Shown here in pieces: positions 2,559-54,890 of a stretch of 64,000 nucleotides of DNA. The notes below the pieces were generated by a model. It was not told where the DNA came from and searched no databases. It saw nothing but the letters and a program-made list of their open reading frames with translations. The position numbers and the translations under genes were made by a program. The stretch's first letter is position 1. Every line of letters begins with the position of its first letter. Source of the stretch: Emticicia oligotrophica DSM 17448 (GTDB taxonomy: Bacteria > Bacteroidota > Bacteroidia > Cytophagales > Spirosomataceae); assembly GCF_000263195.1 (NCBI RefSeq), contig NC_018748.1, forward strand, positions 310,001-374,000, written 5' to 3'.

Positions 2559-4565
2559 ATGTCAGACAACAACAGTAATGAGTTCCAAAAAAGAAAACCG
2601 ACCAACAACGGTGGTGGCGGTTTACAAGGCTGGATTGTAGCGGCAATTATCATGGGGATTATCGGCTTTTTGTTATTTTCTAGGTCAGCTTCTTTGGCTC
2701 CTATCAAATACAAACAGCTTGAACAAATGATTCTACAAAAAGATGTAGAGAAAGTAGCCGTTGTAGAAGGAAACCGAAGTGTAGAAGTAACACTTACTCG
2801 TGATGCTTTACAAAAACCAGAATATAAAAAAGATTTAGGTAATAATCGTTATAATGCAAGTGGTCCGCACTTAAAAGTTGATTTGATTTCGGTTGAATCG
2901 TTTATGAACGATTACACGAATTTTCTAAAAACTGCACCTATTGATGAAGCTTACCGACAAGCATTGTATCCAGAAAGCATTGAGCGTCAGGATATGATGA
3001 ATATGGTTTGGCAATTACTTCCATTTATTGTTGTATTAGGCTTGATGTATTTCTTAATGAGCCGAATGACAGGTGGTGGTGGCCCCGGTGGTGCAATCTT
3101 CAATATCGGAAAATCAAGAGCTGCTTTGTTTGATGCCGATAATAAAGTAAAAATCACTTTTAATGATGTAGCAGGTCTAGAAGAAGCGAAAGAAGAACTT
3201 CAAGAAATCGTTGATTTCTTAAAAACTCCAAAAAAATATACTGAGCTTGGAGGTAAAATACCAAAAGGTGCTTTATTAGTAGGCCCTCCAGGAACAGGTA
3301 AAACACTCTTAGCTAAAGCTGTGGCTGGTGAAGCCAGTGTGCCTTTCTTCTCATTGTCAGGTTCTGATTTCGTAGAAATGTTTGTGGGTGTAGGTGCCGC
3401 TCGTGTACGTGACCTCTTCAAACAAGCGAAAGAAAAAGCTCCATGTATCATTTTTATTGATGAAATTGATGCCGTTGGTCGCTCACGTGGACGTGGTTCA
3501 ATGCCAGGTGCTAACGACGAACGTGAAAATACACTTAACTCGCTATTGGTAGAAATGGATGGCTTTGGTTCAGATGCTGGTATTATTATTTTAGCAGCTA
3601 CCAACCGCCCAGATGTACTAGATTCTGCTTTGATGCGTCCGGGCCGTTTCGACCGCCAAATTAGTGTCGATGCTCCAGATATCATCGGTCGTGAGGCTAT
3701 TTTCAAAGTGCACATGAAGCCTTTGAAATTATCTAATGATATTGATATTAAAAAACTAGCTGCACAAACACCTGGTTTTGCTGGTGCAGAAATTGCCAAC
3801 GTTTGTAATGAAGCTGCCCTTTTGGCTGCTCGTCGTGGAAAATCAGCTATTGATATGCAAGATTTCCATGATGCCATCGACCGTGAAATTGGTGGTTTAG
3901 AAAAGAAAAACAAACTAATTTCTCCAGAAGAAAAAGAGATTGTTGCTTATCATGAAGCAGGCCACGCAGTAGCAGGGTGGTTCTTAGAACACGCCAATCC
4001 TCTAGTAAAAGTTAGTATTGTACCGCGTGGTATTGCTGCATTAGGATATGCCCAATATTTACCAAAGGAACAATATTTGTATCGTACCGAACAACTTTTC
4101 GATGAAATGTGTATGACACTTGGTGGCCGTGCAGCAGAAGAAGTTGTTTTTGGAAAAATCACCACTGGTGCATTGAGCGATTTAGAAAGAATCACGAAAA
4201 GTGCTTATGGAATGATTTCCGTTTATGGTATGAACGACCGCATTGGTAATGTTTCTTACTATGACTCGAAAGGACAAGGTGAAATGTCATTTACGAAACC
4301 ATATTCAGAAGATACTGCAAAGGTAATTGATGAAGAGGTGAAGAAATTGATTGATAGTGCTTACGTTCGCACGAAAGAATTATTAATCGAAAAACGTGAA
4401 GAATTAGAGAAAATCGCTCAAGAATTATTGAAAAAAGAAATTCTTTATCAATCAGACTTAGTTGATTTAATTGGTAAGCGTCCGTTTGAGAAATTGACTA
4501 ATTATCAAGAATTTATGGATAAAGTCGATACTCCAACTGAAGAACAACCTTCAGTAACTGAGTAA
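2559..4565 (+). CDS. ftsH: ATP-dependent zinc metalloprotease FtsH
   Basis: Membrane-anchored AAA+ protease that degrades misassembled membrane proteins and short-lived regulators. Order: N-terminal hydrophilic tail, TM1 about 25-41, periplasmic domain about 45-150, TM2 about 152-169, glycine-rich linker, AAA domain with Walker A GPPGTGKT 242-249, Walker B IIFIDEID ending at 304 and the second region of homology [20 protein letters not shown], then the M41 protease domain with zinc motif HEAGH at 465-469. The 668 residues are normal for Bacteroidota FtsH. ATG start, 90 bases after rsfS; a strong bidirectional hairpin follows the stop. Confidence 0.97.
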
Positions 4566-48583: not shown

Positions 48584-49336
48584 CTATTTCTTAGCTTTTT
48601 TTCTAAAATCAAGATTCTGAAAAAAGAAAAGCCTAATGCTATTAATATTTCTAAATCGATTTCCAGATGCTAATTGCTGATAAACATTCATATAGCCAAA
48701 CTGAAAATTTGAGTGAGAATCAATATTATATGCCAAACCTGCAAAAAAACGATTTTGGTCAAAAACATTATAGACATTATTTTTCGAGAGATTTAGCATC
48801 ACTTCATTATTCAAAACGGCTGAAAATGTTTTAGGAGCAATACCTTTACTACTCAATGGAATGTTTAGTAAAAAATTATACCGAATTCGTTCATCAAAAC
48901 GATAGCCTTCAGCCAATTCATTATCATTTTTTATTTTTCGTCTAAAGCGTTCTTCCAACCGAAGCCACTGCATTGTTCGAAGCTTGCCATATTTTGTATG
49001 TAACTGAAGTTGATGCCAAATTCTATGCTCGGGCTGAGAAATATTGGCATGCCCCTCTTCAGGAAAATGATTGGCATAATTATAGGCATTAGTAAATTTC
49101 AAATCATCATTGATGTAATACATTAAGCCCAATCTACTCAAGAATTTTGAAGGTTCTTTAATAAAGTGGTCAGTCGTTCGGTAATGAGCATCGAACCAAA
49201 TTCCCCATTTATTACTGATTCTAGATTGATTGAAATATCCAAGCCAAAGTTGCTCTTCATCTTGAACCAAACGAGTAGTTTGTCCAAAAATAGAGGTACA
49301 AATGCAAGAAAGGATGAATAAAAATCTATATTTCAT
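48584..49336 (-). CDS. DUF2490 outer-membrane-type protein
   Basis: 250 residues with a signal peptide (MKYRFLFILSCICTSIFGQ). DUF2490 pattern: QDEEQLWLGYFNQSRISNKWGIWFDAHYRTT, HRIWHQLQL, LRTMQWLRLEERFRRK, RIRYNFLLNIPL, NVFDQNRFFAGLAYN, NFQFGYMNVYQQ. Alternating strands ending in an aromatic-rich C-terminus suggest a small beta-barrel in the outer membrane. Function unknown. It follows the DUF1684 gene by 10 bases on the same strand, so the two are likely cotranscribed. Confidence 0.85.
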   Translation of the reverse strand: MKYRFLFILSCICTSIFGQTTRLVQDEEQLWLGYFNQSRISNKWGIWFDAHYRTTDHFIKEPSKFLSRLGLMYYINDDLKFTNAYNYANHFPEEGHANISQPEHRIWHQLQLHTKYGKLRTMQWLRLEERFRRKIKNDNELAEGYRFDERIRYNFLLNIPLSSKGIAPKTFSAVLNNEVMLNLSKNNVYNVFDQNRFFAGLAYNIDSHSNFQFGYMNVYQQLASGNRFRNINSIRLFFFQNLDFRKKAKK

Positions 49337-50933: not shown

Positions 50934-51032
50934 ATTGTAAGCAGTTTAGAATAGTGTGACCAAAACTATTATTTAGGATTTGATATAGAAATGACAAATA
51001 TCATATTTTAAACTGAGAAATTAGGTCATTTT

Positions 51033-51052
51033 AGCCTTAATTAGGCTTTTTT
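51033..51052 (+). terminator. Terminator-like hairpin upstream of the ModE-like gene
   Basis: AGCCT-TAATT-AGGCT followed by TTTTT, 45 bases before the start at 51097. Nothing obvious is transcribed towards it from upstream, so it may be part of the gene's own leader. Confidence 0.35.
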
Positions 51053-51096
51053 AGAAGTAGTTATTTATCTTTACACCGAATATTTGTTTTTTCGCA

Positions 51097-51465
51097 ATGC
51101 CAATCAGAGATTTATTAAAAACTGACAAGAAATTTAGGGTTACAGGAATGCTCAGAATTGAAAGTGAAGATGATCGTTTTCTTGGGCCTGGCCGACTCGA
51201 ATTACTTGAAAATATCATCGAAACAGGTTCGATAAGTCAAGCAGCTAAGCAAATGGGAATGTCATACAAAAAAGCTTGGGATTTAGTCAATTCTATGAAC
51301 CAGCATACCCAAAAGCCCATTGTCACTACGCAAACTGGCGGTGAAAAAGGTGGAGGAACGGTCGTAACCGAAGAGGGCAAACAATTAATTGTAGCCTTCA
51401 GGAAATTACATGAAGAATTTCAACAATCTTTTGAGAAACATCTTGATGCTTTTTTGAATACTTAA
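51097..51465 (+). CDS. ModE-type winged-helix regulator, DNA-binding domain only
   Basis: 122 residues matching the N-terminal DNA-binding domain of ModE: FLGPGRLELLENIIETGSISQAAKQMGMSYKKAWDLV, then TTQTGGEKGGGTVVTEEGKQLI. The C-terminal Mop/TOBE molybdate-binding domains of E. coli ModE are absent; the gene ends after the dimerisation helix. It probably binds ModE-box DNA; how metal is sensed is open. A ModE-box-like dyad lies 785 bases downstream, between the TauE/SafE and TonB-receptor genes. Its own start follows a weak TATCTTTA box (51066-51073). Confidence 0.88.
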   Translation: MPIRDLLKTDKKFRVTGMLRIESEDDRFLGPGRLELLENIIETGSISQAAKQMGMSYKKAWDLVNSMNQHTQKPIVTTQTGGEKGGGTVVTEEGKQLIVAFRKLHEEFQQSFEKHLDAFLNT

Positions 51466-51484
51466 TATTAAAAAAATTAGACTT

Positions 51485-52228
51485 CTATGTAAAAAGAAGT
51501 TTTAAACAAGCAATTGTTAAACCTATTGCTAAGAGCTTTTTGAGGGTTGGCGTATTAAATTTCTGACTTCCAAAATAAGAACCAATTAAGCCCCCTATAA
51601 TAGTTGCTAATACTGCCCATTGCATATTTTCGGGTAAATTAATACCTCCTTTTTGAAGCTGCCCATAAAGACCTGACAATGAATTCACGAAAATAAAAAG
51701 TGCTGAAACGGCAGCTGTTTCCTTGATATTAGACCAACGCATTAGTAACATCAATGGACTAAGAATTATCCCTCCTCCAATACCAATCATCCCTGATAAT
51801 AAACCAATTAAGCCACCTGAAAGTAAGCCAGCCCAAAGTGGAATCGGTTTGTTCGTTTCATTTTCTGTACCGAATTTATAAATCAACCTTACGATAGAAA
51901 ATAGAATACAAACCGCAAGAATTTTCTTATATATAGAATCTGAAAGTGTCATGGTTCCGCCCACAAATGCCATTGGAATACTAGCCAAAGCAAATGGCCA
52001 AAATAATCTAAATCGAAAATGACCTGCACGATAAAAACCTATGAATGAAAATAAAGACACAGCTAAATTCATGACTAGGGCCGACGATTTCATCATGGCA
52101 GGTGCCACACCCATAATTGCCATAATGGCCAAGTATCCACTTGCCCCACCATGCCCAACCGATGAATATAAAAAAGCTACTATACCTAATAAAAAAAGTA
52201 AAAGTAAAAGTAAAATTGAAGAAGTCAT
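51485..52228 (-). CDS. TauE/SafE-family anion permease
   Basis: 247 residues with seven to eight hydrophobic helices. Family features: an N-terminal GIVAFLYSSVGHGGASGYLA block and a repeat-like LLSGMIGIGGGIILSPLML in the second half. Members move sulfite, sulfoacetate, sulfate-like or other small anions across the inner membrane. Its promoter shares a ModE-box-like dyad with the divergent TonB receptor, and a ModE-type regulator gene lies on the other side, so a molybdate or tungstate role is a reasonable inference. It converges on the ModE-like gene (19-base gap). Confidence 0.9.
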   Translation of the reverse strand: MTSSILLLLLLFLLGIVAFLYSSVGHGGASGYLAIMAIMGVAPAMMKSSALVMNLAVSLFSFIGFYRAGHFRFRLFWPFALASIPMAFVGGTMTLSDSIYKKILAVCILFSIVRLIYKFGTENETNKPIPLWAGLLSGGLIGLLSGMIGIGGGIILSPLMLLMRWSNIKETAAVSALFIFVNSLSGLYGQLQKGGINLPENMQWAVLATIIGGLIGSYFGSQKFNTPTLKKLLAIGLTIACLKLLFT

Positions 52229-52249
52229 AGGTTTTTGAAATTCGAAAAA

Positions 52250-52274
52250 GCGTTATATATTTACAAATATAGCG
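52250..52274. promoter_or_regulatory. ModE-box-like dyad
   Basis: CGTTATAT (52251-52258) and ATATAGCG (52267-52274) pair as an inverted repeat with one mismatch in eight and an 8-base spacer. This matches the CGNTATAT-type half-sites of ModE boxes. It starts 22 bases before the TauE/SafE start codon and ends 42 bases before the receptor ATG, so one site could control both promoters. Confidence 0.75.
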
Positions 52275-52316
52275 AATACTTCCCATTTACATTCAATAAT
52301 CAAAAAATATTCATTG

Positions 52317-54890
52317 ATGAAGCGAATATTAAGTTTTCATGCCAATCGTTATATTTTTATTTATATTACGATTTTATTTATTCCTACTGAAATTGTAGTA
52401 GCTCAAGAAGCTGATACTTTAAAATCGCAGGTATTAGAAGAGGTTGTAGTTTCCGCCTCAAGAATTCGTGAAAAGTATTTAAAATCAGCTTCGAGCATTG
52501 AATTACTTACACTCAAACAAATCCAACAAAGTGCAGCCACGAGTTATTTTGATGCCATCGAAAACCTGAAGGGTATTCAGCTCATTACTCCTAGTTTAGG
52601 TTTTAAAGTCTATAATGCTCGTGGATTTACAAATACCACCAATGTTCGTTTCGTACAATTAGTTGATGGTATTGACAACCAAGCTCCACACATCGGTTCG
52701 CCAATTGCGGCAGCCATGGGTCCTACTGACCTTGATATTAGACAAGTAGAAGTGATTCCCGGAGTGGCATCGGCACTGTATGGCATGAATTCATTGAATG
52801 GACTTGTAAATTTACTCACACTCAATCCTTTCGAATCAACAGGCTTTAGCTTCCAGCAAAAAACAGGAGTTAATCATATCAATGAAAACAGCATCAAACT
52901 TCAGTTGTTTTCTGAAACTAATCTACGTTTTGCATACAAATTCAATGAAAAACTAGCATTTAAAACAAACTTTAGCTACCAAAAAGGCTATGATTGGATA
53001 GCAAATTCAACCCTCGATTTGAATCCATCGGCCAATACTTCGGTTGGACTTTTGGGAAAAGATAATCCCGGTGCAGATTATGTGAGTTCTTATGGCAATG
53101 AATCTTCTAATAGACGTACGCTTACATTGGGTGGTAAAAGATACGTAGTTGCTCGTACTGGATATCTTGAAGAAGAAGTGACAGATTATTCAATCAATAA
53201 TTTAAAAGCTGATATTTCTTTGAATTACAGGTTCAAACCTCAACACGAGCTGGTTTATAATTTTAAATTTTCTCAACTAGATAATGTTTATCAACGAACC
53301 AATCGTTTTCGGCTGAATAATTATCAACTTTCTCAGCAAGCTCTTACTTATCAAGGGCCTAATTCACAGCTTAAAGCCTACTTAACTACTGAAAATACTG
53401 GAAAATCATATAATATTCGTTCGATGGCAGAAAATATCGACCGAACTTTCAAATCAGATAATACTTGGTTTACTGATTTTACCAATGAATTTAATAGTCA
53501 AACTAAACAAGGTAAAACAGTCATTGAAGCACTAAACTTAGCCAGAAAGCAAGCCGATAATGGCCGACCCCAACCAAATACGCCAGCATTTAACCAATTA
53601 ATTGAAAAATTAGGCGACATTAATAATTGGGATATAGGTGCAGCATTGCGGGTAAAATCGTATATGTTCCATACTGAAGGTTTGAGTGATTTAAGTTCGA
53701 AACTCGCTCCTAATTTACAAAACAAAGGTTGGGGGCTATTAGCAGGCTTTGATTACCGTAACTATTTTGTTGTGCCTGATGGCAATTATTTCATCAACCC
53801 CAAAGACAACGATAAAAACTTAAATTACTGGAAAGGGGGTGGTTTTATTCAGAGTAGCAAAACATTTCTTAATGAAAAAATAAAAGTCGTTTTAACACTT
53901 CGTGCCGATAAAAACCAATATTTCAATCTTCGATTAAATCCTCGTGGCTCAGCTATTTATTCGCTCAATGAAAATAATCATTTGAGGATTTCTTATCAAA
54001 ATGGCTATCGTTTCCCGAGTTTGTTTGAAGCTTTTTCGAATATAAATAGTGGTGGTGTGAAACGAGTGGGAGGCTTACCGATTATGTCACAAGGAATTTT
54101 TGAGAATTCATATTTACGCAAAACTATTGATGATTTCACGGCGGCGGTCAACCAAGATATCAATGTAAATAAGTTGAGTCAGAATGAGGCCATTAGCAAA
54201 AACAAGGGTTTACTCCGCAAAAACGATTATACATATTTGAAACCTGAATATGTAAATAGCTTTGAAATTGGTTACAAAGGTTATCCAATCGGGAAGAAAC
54301 TGTTCATTGATGCTGATTTCTATTACAATGTTTACAGAAATTTCATGGCACAAGTTGAAGCCAATGTACCGCTTGGTTCCAACCCCGATTCGTTAGCATT
54401 TTATATGTACGACCGTAATAAGCAAGCTAGATATCGACTTTGGACAAATTCAAAAACAATTGTGCATAATTACGGCGGGGGCATCAATCTAAGTTATAAT
54501 TTTTATCGAACCTTCACATTTACCACCAATGTTTCTTTTGCAAAATTGCAGAGCGTAGCCAATAATGATGGTTTTGAAGAAGCCTTTAATACGCCACGTT
54601 GGATTTTAAACATAGGTTTAGGAAATGCCCGATTAACAAAAAATTTAGGATTTGGTATTAATTATAAATATCAAGAAAGTTTCTTGTGGCAATCTGCCTT
54701 AGCAACTGGACAGGTACCTGAAATACATAATGTAGATGCCCAATTCACCTATTATATGCGAAAAAAAGGTTTACAGTTTAAGTTAGCAGGAACGAATATA
54801 TTCAATCGACCTTACGTAAGCTTTATCGCAGCTCCAACGGTTGGAGCGTTTTACTACCTGACTATTACTGCGGATTTGGGAAGAAATTGA
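52317..54890 (+). CDS. TonB-dependent outer-membrane receptor
   Basis: 857 residues from the ATG at 52317 (a TTG precedes it). Signal peptide to VVAQ (about residue 30). Plug domain about 45-165 with VLEEVVVSASRIREK, GIQLITPSLGFKVYNARGF, LVDGIDNQ and DIRQVEVIPGVASALYGMNSLNGLVNLLT. The remaining 690 residues are barrel strands. No N-terminal carboxypeptidase-regulatory-like domain and no SusD partner, unlike glycan receptors of the phylum, so it is CirA/FepA-like. The ModE-box promoter suggests molybdate/tungstate or a metal complex as cargo (inference). Confidence 0.93.
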   Translation: MKRILSFHANRYIFIYITILFIPTEIVVAQEADTLKSQVLEEVVVSASRIREKYLKSASSIELLTLKQIQQSAATSYFDAIENLKGIQLITPSLGFKVYNARGFTNTTNVRFVQLVDGIDNQAPHIGSPIAAAMGPTDLDIRQVEVIPGVASALYGMNSLNGLVNLLTLNPFESTGFSFQQKTGVNHINENSIKLQLFSETNLRFAYKFNEKLAFKTNFSYQKGYDWIANSTLDLNPSANTSVGLLGKDNPGADYVSSYGNESSNRRTLTLGGKRYVVARTGYLEEEVTDYSINNLKADISLNYRFKPQHELVYNFKFSQLDNVYQRTNRFRLNNYQLSQQALTYQGPNSQLKAYLTTENTGKSYNIRSMAENIDRTFKSDNTWFTDFTNEFNSQTKQGKTVIEALNLARKQADNGRPQPNTPAFNQLIEKLGDINNWDIGAALRVKSYMFHTEGLSDLSSKLAPNLQNKGWGLLAGFDYRNYFVVPDGNYFINPKDNDKNLNYWKGGGFIQSSKTFLNEKIKVVLTLRADKNQYFNLRLNPRGSAIYSLNENNHLRISYQNGYRFPSLFEAFSNINSGGVKRVGGLPIMSQGIFENSYLRKTIDDFTAAVNQDINVNKLSQNEAISKNKGLLRKNDYTYLKPEYVNSFEIGYKGYPIGKKLFIDADFYYNVYRNFMAQVEANVPLGSNPDSLAFYMYDRNKQARYRLWTNSKTIVHNYGGGINLSYNFYRTFTFTTNVSFAKLQSVANNDGFEEAFNTPRWILNIGLGNARLTKNLGFGINYKYQESFLWQSALATGQVPEIHNVDAQFTYYMRKKGLQFKLAGTNIFNRPYVSFIAAPTVGAFYYLTITADLGRN

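Follow-up and report, generated by a model that had tools for sequence, protein, structure and literature searches.

A candidate molybdate uptake system without ModABC in Emticicia oligotrophica: a TauE/SafE permease and a TonB-dependent receptor next to a ModE-type gene

Described systems and the Emticicia locus

The closest described counterpart of the locus presented here is the ModE regulon with the ATP-binding cassette (ABC) transporter ModABC, known from E. coli and other bacteria. In the 5.22 Mb genome of Emticicia oligotrophica DSM 17448, a stretch of 64,000 nucleotides (contig NC_018748.1, positions 310,001 to 374,000; hereafter the window) carries a cluster formed by a ModE-type gene, a TauE/SafE permease gene and a TonB-dependent receptor gene. 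This cluster has in common with the ModE regulon a winged-helix domain, a box of the E. coli consensus and the position of this box before oxyanion uptake genes. It differs in that no ModB was found, the predicted targets are the TauE/SafE permease and the TonB receptor, and the regulator has no molybdate-binding domain. Comparison with related genomes makes it probable that the cluster is a system for the acquisition of molybdate (possibly also of tungstate) without an ABC transporter, in which the TauE/SafE permease would replace ModABC and the box-controlled TonB receptor would provide the outer-membrane step. The prediction is strong for the regulation and for the gene replacement, and moderate for molybdenum as the cargo of the receptor.

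Sulfate and molybdate are similar oxyanions. Within the TauE/SafE (TSUP, PF01925) family, to which the permease belongs, a TauE homologue allowed an E. coli cysA mutant to grow again, an effect that its authors attributed to sulfate uptake (PMC11535334). Hence, the family is able to serve oxyanion import, with this homologue as the precedent. What separates the present permease from other TauE/SafE proteins is a link to molybdenum, made by the box, by neighbouring genes for the molybdenum cofactor (Moco) and by the alternation with ModABC. In Desulfovibrio, ModE DNA-binding domains that stand alone, with unexplained sensing, have been noted; they resemble the regulator described here in consisting of the DNA-binding domain only, but a different motif, CGGTCACG-N14-CGTGACCG, was predicted for them before modABC (PMC545781). 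Dedicated outer-membrane metal uptake is a feature common to the proposed receptor and to MnoT, OprC and the ModA-IcmP molybdate system, whereas the cargo of MnoT and OprC is manganese and copper, respectively, instead of the molybdenum proposed here (PMC8602904). With the SulP/MOT1-type proteins (PF16983), the permease would share molybdate uptake without an ABC transporter, although it belongs to another family.

In a survey of 5,893 organisms, 278 of the 3,683 molybdenum-using bacteria had no known molybdenum or tungsten transporter, and additional uptake systems were suggested (Peng et al., 2018; PMC6147048). The locus and its relatives supply a named candidate for the inner-membrane step and a candidate for the outer-membrane step. 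Neither a molybdate importer of the TauE/SafE family nor a TonB receptor under ModE control was found described in the literature covered, a search in which subscription journals were mostly outside the coverage and “ModE” was partly confounded with “mode”. If the proposed function is true, the “sulfite exporter” label on these TauE/SafE genes needs correction.

The ModE-type box and its conservation

An earlier note, made from the window only, had described an inverted repeat between divergent TauE/SafE and receptor genes, adjoining a gene for a ModE DNA-binding domain. Both are present (Table 1). The repeat, CGTTATAT-ATTTACAA-ATATAGCG at 52251-52274, lies in the 88-base gap (52229-52316) that separates the TauE/SafE gene, starting at 52228 on the minus strand, from the receptor gene (ATG at 52317, plus strand), and the adjoining gene encodes an HTH_1 protein with matches to TIGR00637 and to the structure of E. 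coli ModE. The dyad agrees with the E. coli ModE consensus, ATCGNTATATA-N6-TATATANCGAT (PMC545781). Its strict form, CGNTATAT-N8-ATATANCG, has a single match in the genome, and the reversed control pattern none. The fuller form, CGTTATAT-N8-ATATAACG, was found at three genome sites when up to two mismatches were allowed: two at this locus (52251 and 52347-52370) with one mismatch each, and the third elsewhere with two. The second site at the locus, absent from the earlier note, falls within the signal-peptide codons of the receptor, and a copy of it occurs in all seven near-relative loci (L032-L038). No dyad at this threshold was obtained in 40 first-order Markov resamplings of the window. The reversed control, on the other side, also gave three genome matches at up to two mismatches, as would be expected if the dyad were a chance or unrelated AT-rich palindrome. 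That explanation is scarcely credible, because the spacer of eight bases is kept at orthologous positions across many genera and is tied to the presence of a ModE-type gene, as described below. For the same reason, the dyad is taken to be a real box of the predicted ModE type.

Conservation at orthologous loci had been proposed beforehand as a check on the dyad, and it was borne out for all three classes of genes. Receptor orthologues, defined by at least 50% identity, were present in 62 of the 150 sampled genomes of the family; this line between orthologues and paralogues, like the box settings, was fixed only after the matches had been inspected. The search covered 35 orthologous loci, taken from 34 of the 62 genomes for genus spread and excluding the short loci L002-L031, and in each of them the region reaching from 320 bases before the receptor start to 110 bases past it. 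A spacer-8 dyad with at most two mismatches was located in this region in 29 of the 35 loci, compared with two for a control spacer of 10 and none for spacers of 5, 6, 7, 9 and 11. With three mismatches, the counts were 32 for spacer 8, six for spacer 10, three for spacer 6 and zero for the others. Among the six loci missed at two mismatches, L050 and L071 come from genomes without a detected ModE-type gene, L054, L060 and L063 have a dyad with three mismatches, and L057 is a second copy. At the loci of receptor paralogues the box was found in none of five, even at up to three mismatches.

The same box precedes the two types of inner-membrane transporter genes. For TauE/SafE, loci from 62 of the 79 TauE-bearing genomes were searched up to 500 bases upstream of the gene, leaving out the locus of the window itself. 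A spacer-8 box with at most two mismatches was found in 22 of the 37 loci whose genome has a ModE-type gene versus 0 of the 25 whose genome has none (Fisher, 3e-7). In L078, L133 and L196, three of the 22, the box is over 300 bases away from the gene start, and in L078 and L133 a ModE-type gene intervenes. For modABC, loci of 45 of the 58 ModB genomes were fetched and 44 were usable, ModB being unrecognised in the frame list of L218; in 20 of the 35 loci with a ModE-type gene in the genome, versus 0 of the 9 without, the box stood upstream of a modB-operon gene. At the same threshold, spacers of 6, 7, 9 and 10 gave no box in either set. A common box thus marks modABC operons, the TauE/SafE permease and the TonB receptor, which together form a predicted regulon in the relatives.

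The position of a promoter element suggests how this box may act. The sequence TAnnTTTG, the consensus of the Bacteroidota -7 element, lies inside the box and points toward the gene in 50 of 72 gene-box pairs, while the opposite direction accounts for six. By class, it was present in 14 of 30 receptor boxes, 16 of 21 TauE boxes and 20 of 21 boxes of mod operons. When 51000-52450 was scanned for generic sigma-70 promoters, the 7 hits did not exceed the chance level (6.5 expected). The overlap of box and -7 element would be read most simply as a repressor that occupies the promoter.

Table 1. Predicted features of the locus, in positions of the window.
Feature	Position	Strand	Evidence
ModE-type stand-alone winged-helix DNA-binding protein, 122 aa	51097..51465	+	PF00126; TIGR00637 97.9 bits; 1b9m E 1.4e-18; 2ijl E 1.6e-20
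TauE/SafE (TSUP) permease, 247 aa; proposed inner-membrane molybdate importer	51485..52228	-	PF01925 118 bits; ModB exclusion; box upstream in relatives
Candidate ModE box CGTTATAT-N8-ATATAGCG, in the intergenic gap upstream of both the permease and the receptor gene	52251..52274	.	Sole strict genome match; kept at orthologous loci with spacer 8
TATATTTG, putative Bacteroidota -7-type element within the box, toward the permease gene	52264..52271	-	Pattern scan
Second candidate ModE box, from base 31 of the receptor reading frame (signal-peptide codons)	52347..52370	.	In 7/7 near-relative loci
TonB-dependent receptor, 857 aa, plug and barrel; proposed outer-membrane molybdenum receptor	52317..54890	+	PF07715, PF00593; box near start in 29/35 orthologous loci

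Alternation of the permease with ModABC

The match of the permease to PF01925 (cut-off 32.6 bits) covers residues 11-244 and positions 2-237 of the 237 of the profile; this was the only Pfam family matched, and PF16983 (MOT1) gave no match in this protein. By sequence, no credible relative was found among solved structures (best E 0.28), and the structure model, with a predicted local distance difference test score (pLDDT) of 42, was too poor for fold comparison. An alignment of 31 permeases from both subfamilies, the close and the distant one, has 37 invariant positions, including the motifs SVGxGG and GIGGGI.

The earlier note had reported that the window contains no ModABC. For the ModB-type permease this absence extends to the whole genome, in which TIGR02141 gave no match at E 0.001, the models for ModA, ModC, TupA and WtpA not having been searched. 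Instead, one MoaA match and seven matches to the xanthine-oxidase-type domain MoCoBD_1 are present, and the genome looks molybdenum-using. None of 11 genomes of the genus has ModB over the cut-off; weaker matches occur in three. The comparison was then widened to the 150 family genomes, with TauE counted at 50% identity or more and ModB above its curated cut-off: 78 genomes have TauE only, 57 ModB only, one both (G032) and 14 neither. Eight of these 14 have a distant TauE (37-39% identity), and three of the other six are without a MoaA match. The 144 MoaA-positive genomes divide into 57 with ModB only, 83 with a close or distant TauE only, one with both and three with neither (G014, G092 and G133). 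The TauE/SafE permease and ModABC are near-perfect alternatives.

This exclusion is not just a matter of clade structure, because it holds within mixed genera and in a permutation. In the four genera that have both states (41 genomes), the overlap is zero, with an exact joint probability of 1.2e-7 that assumes exchangeability and excludes genus g32, all 16 genomes of which are ModB-positive and whose only TauE genome accounts for the one overlap. With g32 included, a within-genus permutation gave a mean of 8.3 overlaps and, over 20,000 rounds, never fewer than 3, versus the 1 observed; same-genus genomes are not independent, and this test assumes exchangeability as well. In a sample of 291 genomes of the order outside the family, a TauE homologue, which may not be an orthologue (34-76% identity, E 1e-30 or better), is present in 61 and ModB over the cut-off in 50, with six more under it, again with an overlap of zero; MoaA was searched in the family only.

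The receptor follows a different pattern. The 62 genomes with a receptor orthologue include 26 with ModB, 35 with TauE, none with both and one with neither. The receptor is therefore independent of the absence of ModABC, and the swap concerns the inner-membrane step only. The route through outer and inner membrane without ModABC, as it had first been proposed, is supported by the conserved box, the exclusion of ModB and the Moco neighbours, with two refinements: the swap leaves the receptor aside, and the regulator is a stand-alone DNA-binding domain with no known molybdate-binding part.

Gene neighbourhoods also point to molybdenum. In 21 of the 44 genomes that have both, at most 6 kb separate TauE from a ModE-type gene, and the same holds for TauE and the receptor in 9 of 35 genomes. 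At up to 3 kb from TauE, over 23 genera, the most recurrent neighbours were the ModE-type gene (7 genera), MoaE (5), PF00174 oxidoreductase-like proteins (5), XdhC (4) and MoeA (3), and six further unannotated groups recurred in three genera. These counts do not come from a random sample, because some loci were fetched when TauE and MoaA were already known to lie on the same contig there (among them those of G020, G022, G033, G034, G046, G061, G072, G101 and G122). The association is illustrated by locus L130, with the order MoeA, XdhC, ModE-type gene, box, DUF2490, TauE and MoaE, and by the distant TauE subfamily, which is found in MoaA-MoaC-MobAB-MoaE-TauE-XdhC-MoeA clusters (L181, L182 and L184; MoaC and MobAB labelled by eye).

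Part of this neighbourhood would equally suit a sulfur-anion transporter. XdhC in four genera and PF00174 proteins in five, together with two SulP permeases in the genome, fit a permease (e.g., a sulfite exporter) co-regulated with molybdoenzymes that act on sulfur compounds, or with XdhC-linked sulfuration of Moco, molybdate entering through SulP. We regard this as unlikely, since it leaves unaccounted for both the alternation of the permease with ModABC across genomes and the common box before the two. The preferred reading remains molybdate import by the permease. On balance, we also lean toward a more general form of it, in which a clade of TauE/SafE proteins would add another class to the known bacterial molybdate importers. 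These would be secondary transporters that have repeatedly changed places with ModABC within an order of Bacteroidota, paired with a molybdenum-dedicated TonB receptor and with a ModE-type repressor able to sense molybdenum although it has no molybdate-binding domain.

Uptake of the MOT1 type was considered for this genome and rejected: the two proteins that marginally match PF16983 (36.2 and 31.7 bits; cut-off 30) score 226 and 196 bits to PF00916 and are ordinary sulfate permeases of the SulP family. The two proteins could serve as low-affinity molybdate routes. A second TauE/SafE copy (38% identity) is encoded elsewhere in the genome (L193:5837-6580), beside antiporter-like and efflux-like genes identified by eye, and no molybdenum reference gene was matched nearby.

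Receptor cargo, regulation and neighbouring genes

The receptor matched PF07715 (plug) and PF00593 (barrel) over the cut-off, and no other family at E 0.001. In agreement with the earlier note, which had stated that the SusC-type N-domain is missing, the carboxypeptidase-regulatory-like domain is not among its Pfam matches. Among solved structures, the closest by sequence belong to the colicin I receptor and a haem receptor, through weak matches confined to the plug region; the structure model (pLDDT 46) was too poor for fold comparison. This weak resemblance, together with the MauG-type di-haem proteins encoded in some box-led operons, would suit a receptor that imports another cargo (iron, copper, haem chelates or a sulfur compound) serving molybdoenzymes under the ModE-type repressor. 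Such a cargo is rather unlikely, although it deserves consideration. Indeed, a ModE-type gene is present in 56 of the 62 receptor genomes and within 6 kb of the receptor in 20 of these 56. Across the 35 receptor loci, just two neighbour families recur in at least four genera: the ModE-type gene, found in 7 of 14 genera at a median of 108 bases, and another that lies at a median of 4.3 kb. Moreover, in L047 the box is followed consecutively by TauE, a PF00174 protein and the receptor.

Xanthine-oxidase-type enzymes belong to the molybdenum rather than the tungsten group. The molybdoenzyme-type matches of the genome are of this type, tungsten enzymes not having been searched for, and this speaks against the system being a tungstate importer, which we consider very unlikely. 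In favour of tungstate, the two metals form oxyanions of similar chemistry, and there are ABC systems that transport either or both of them (PMC6147048). Molybdenum, tungsten and a chelate are indistinguishable as substrate from sequence data.

The following mechanism would combine these observations. When molybdenum is plentiful, the ModE-type protein would occupy the box, which overlaps the -7 element, and both divergent genes would be blocked. When it is scarce, the TonB receptor would be made and would bring molybdate or a molybdenum chelate across the outer membrane, and the TauE/SafE permease, as a secondary transporter, would carry molybdate across the inner membrane in place of ModABC, toward Moco synthesis. 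We infer here the repression, the response to molybdenum, the substrate, and the direction and energy source of transport; molybdenum would presumably be the signal to the ModE-type protein.

Several points weigh against molybdate acquisition by this system. The regulator falls 0.6 bits short of the TIGR00637 cut-off of 98.5 bits; none of the 150 family genomes has a match over it, and 90 have one below it. By Pfam, the regulator has HTH_1 only and no molybdate-binding (MOP/TOBE) domain, and a TOBE search of the genome gave no match. The cargo of the receptor is deduced from regulation alone. A receptor box occurs in L070, from a genome (G054) in which no ModE-type gene was detected; 34 family genomes have a ModE-type gene without a receptor orthologue, and six the reverse. 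No box at two mismatches was found in 15 of the 37 TauE loci and 15 of the 35 mod loci of genomes with a ModE-type gene, so that control by the box is not established for every transporter gene. Before TauE, three mismatches gave a noisier picture in genomes with and without a ModE-type gene, respectively: 25 of 37 and 2 of 25 for spacer 8, 4 of 37 and 1 of 25 for spacer 6, none and one for spacer 9, and one and none for spacer 10. Of the 79 TauE genomes of the family, 44 have a detected ModE-type gene and 35 do not; in the latter, the link of the permease to molybdenum comes from the exclusion and the neighbours alone. To these are added the genome with both permeases and the three MoaA-positive genomes with neither, the two SulP permeases, which could carry molybdate, and the name of the TauE family, which derives from exporters.

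Other genes recur around the boxes in relatives. Genes for small PF00174-type proteins of about 165 residues head many box-preceded modABC operons (L203-L205, L209, L212, L215, L217, L219-L221, L227 and L228) and occur at L047:8187-8684, between TauE and the receptor, and at L121:5486-5989. Genes for MauG-type di-haem proteins and, in L118, for a different TonB receptor of 656 residues follow ModE-type boxes in some relatives (L118:4354-6321 and 3179-4306; L120, L203, L215, L217 and L220).

A DUF2490 protein of outer-membrane type is encoded in the window at 48584-49336 on the minus strand. Its gene was rejected as a member of the system, as no box lies nearby and 1.8 kb separate it from the ModE-type gene. 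DUF2490 relatives occur in a ModE-DUF2490-ModA-TOBE-ModB run (L128), in ModE-DUF2490-TauE-MoaE (L130) and beside TauE (L143), and may be an alternative outer-membrane component of molybdenum uptake. Finally, in four genomes of the same genus with TauE away from the receptor (L117, L119, L121 and L122), a GH95-type glycoside hydrolase gene lies 3' of TauE.

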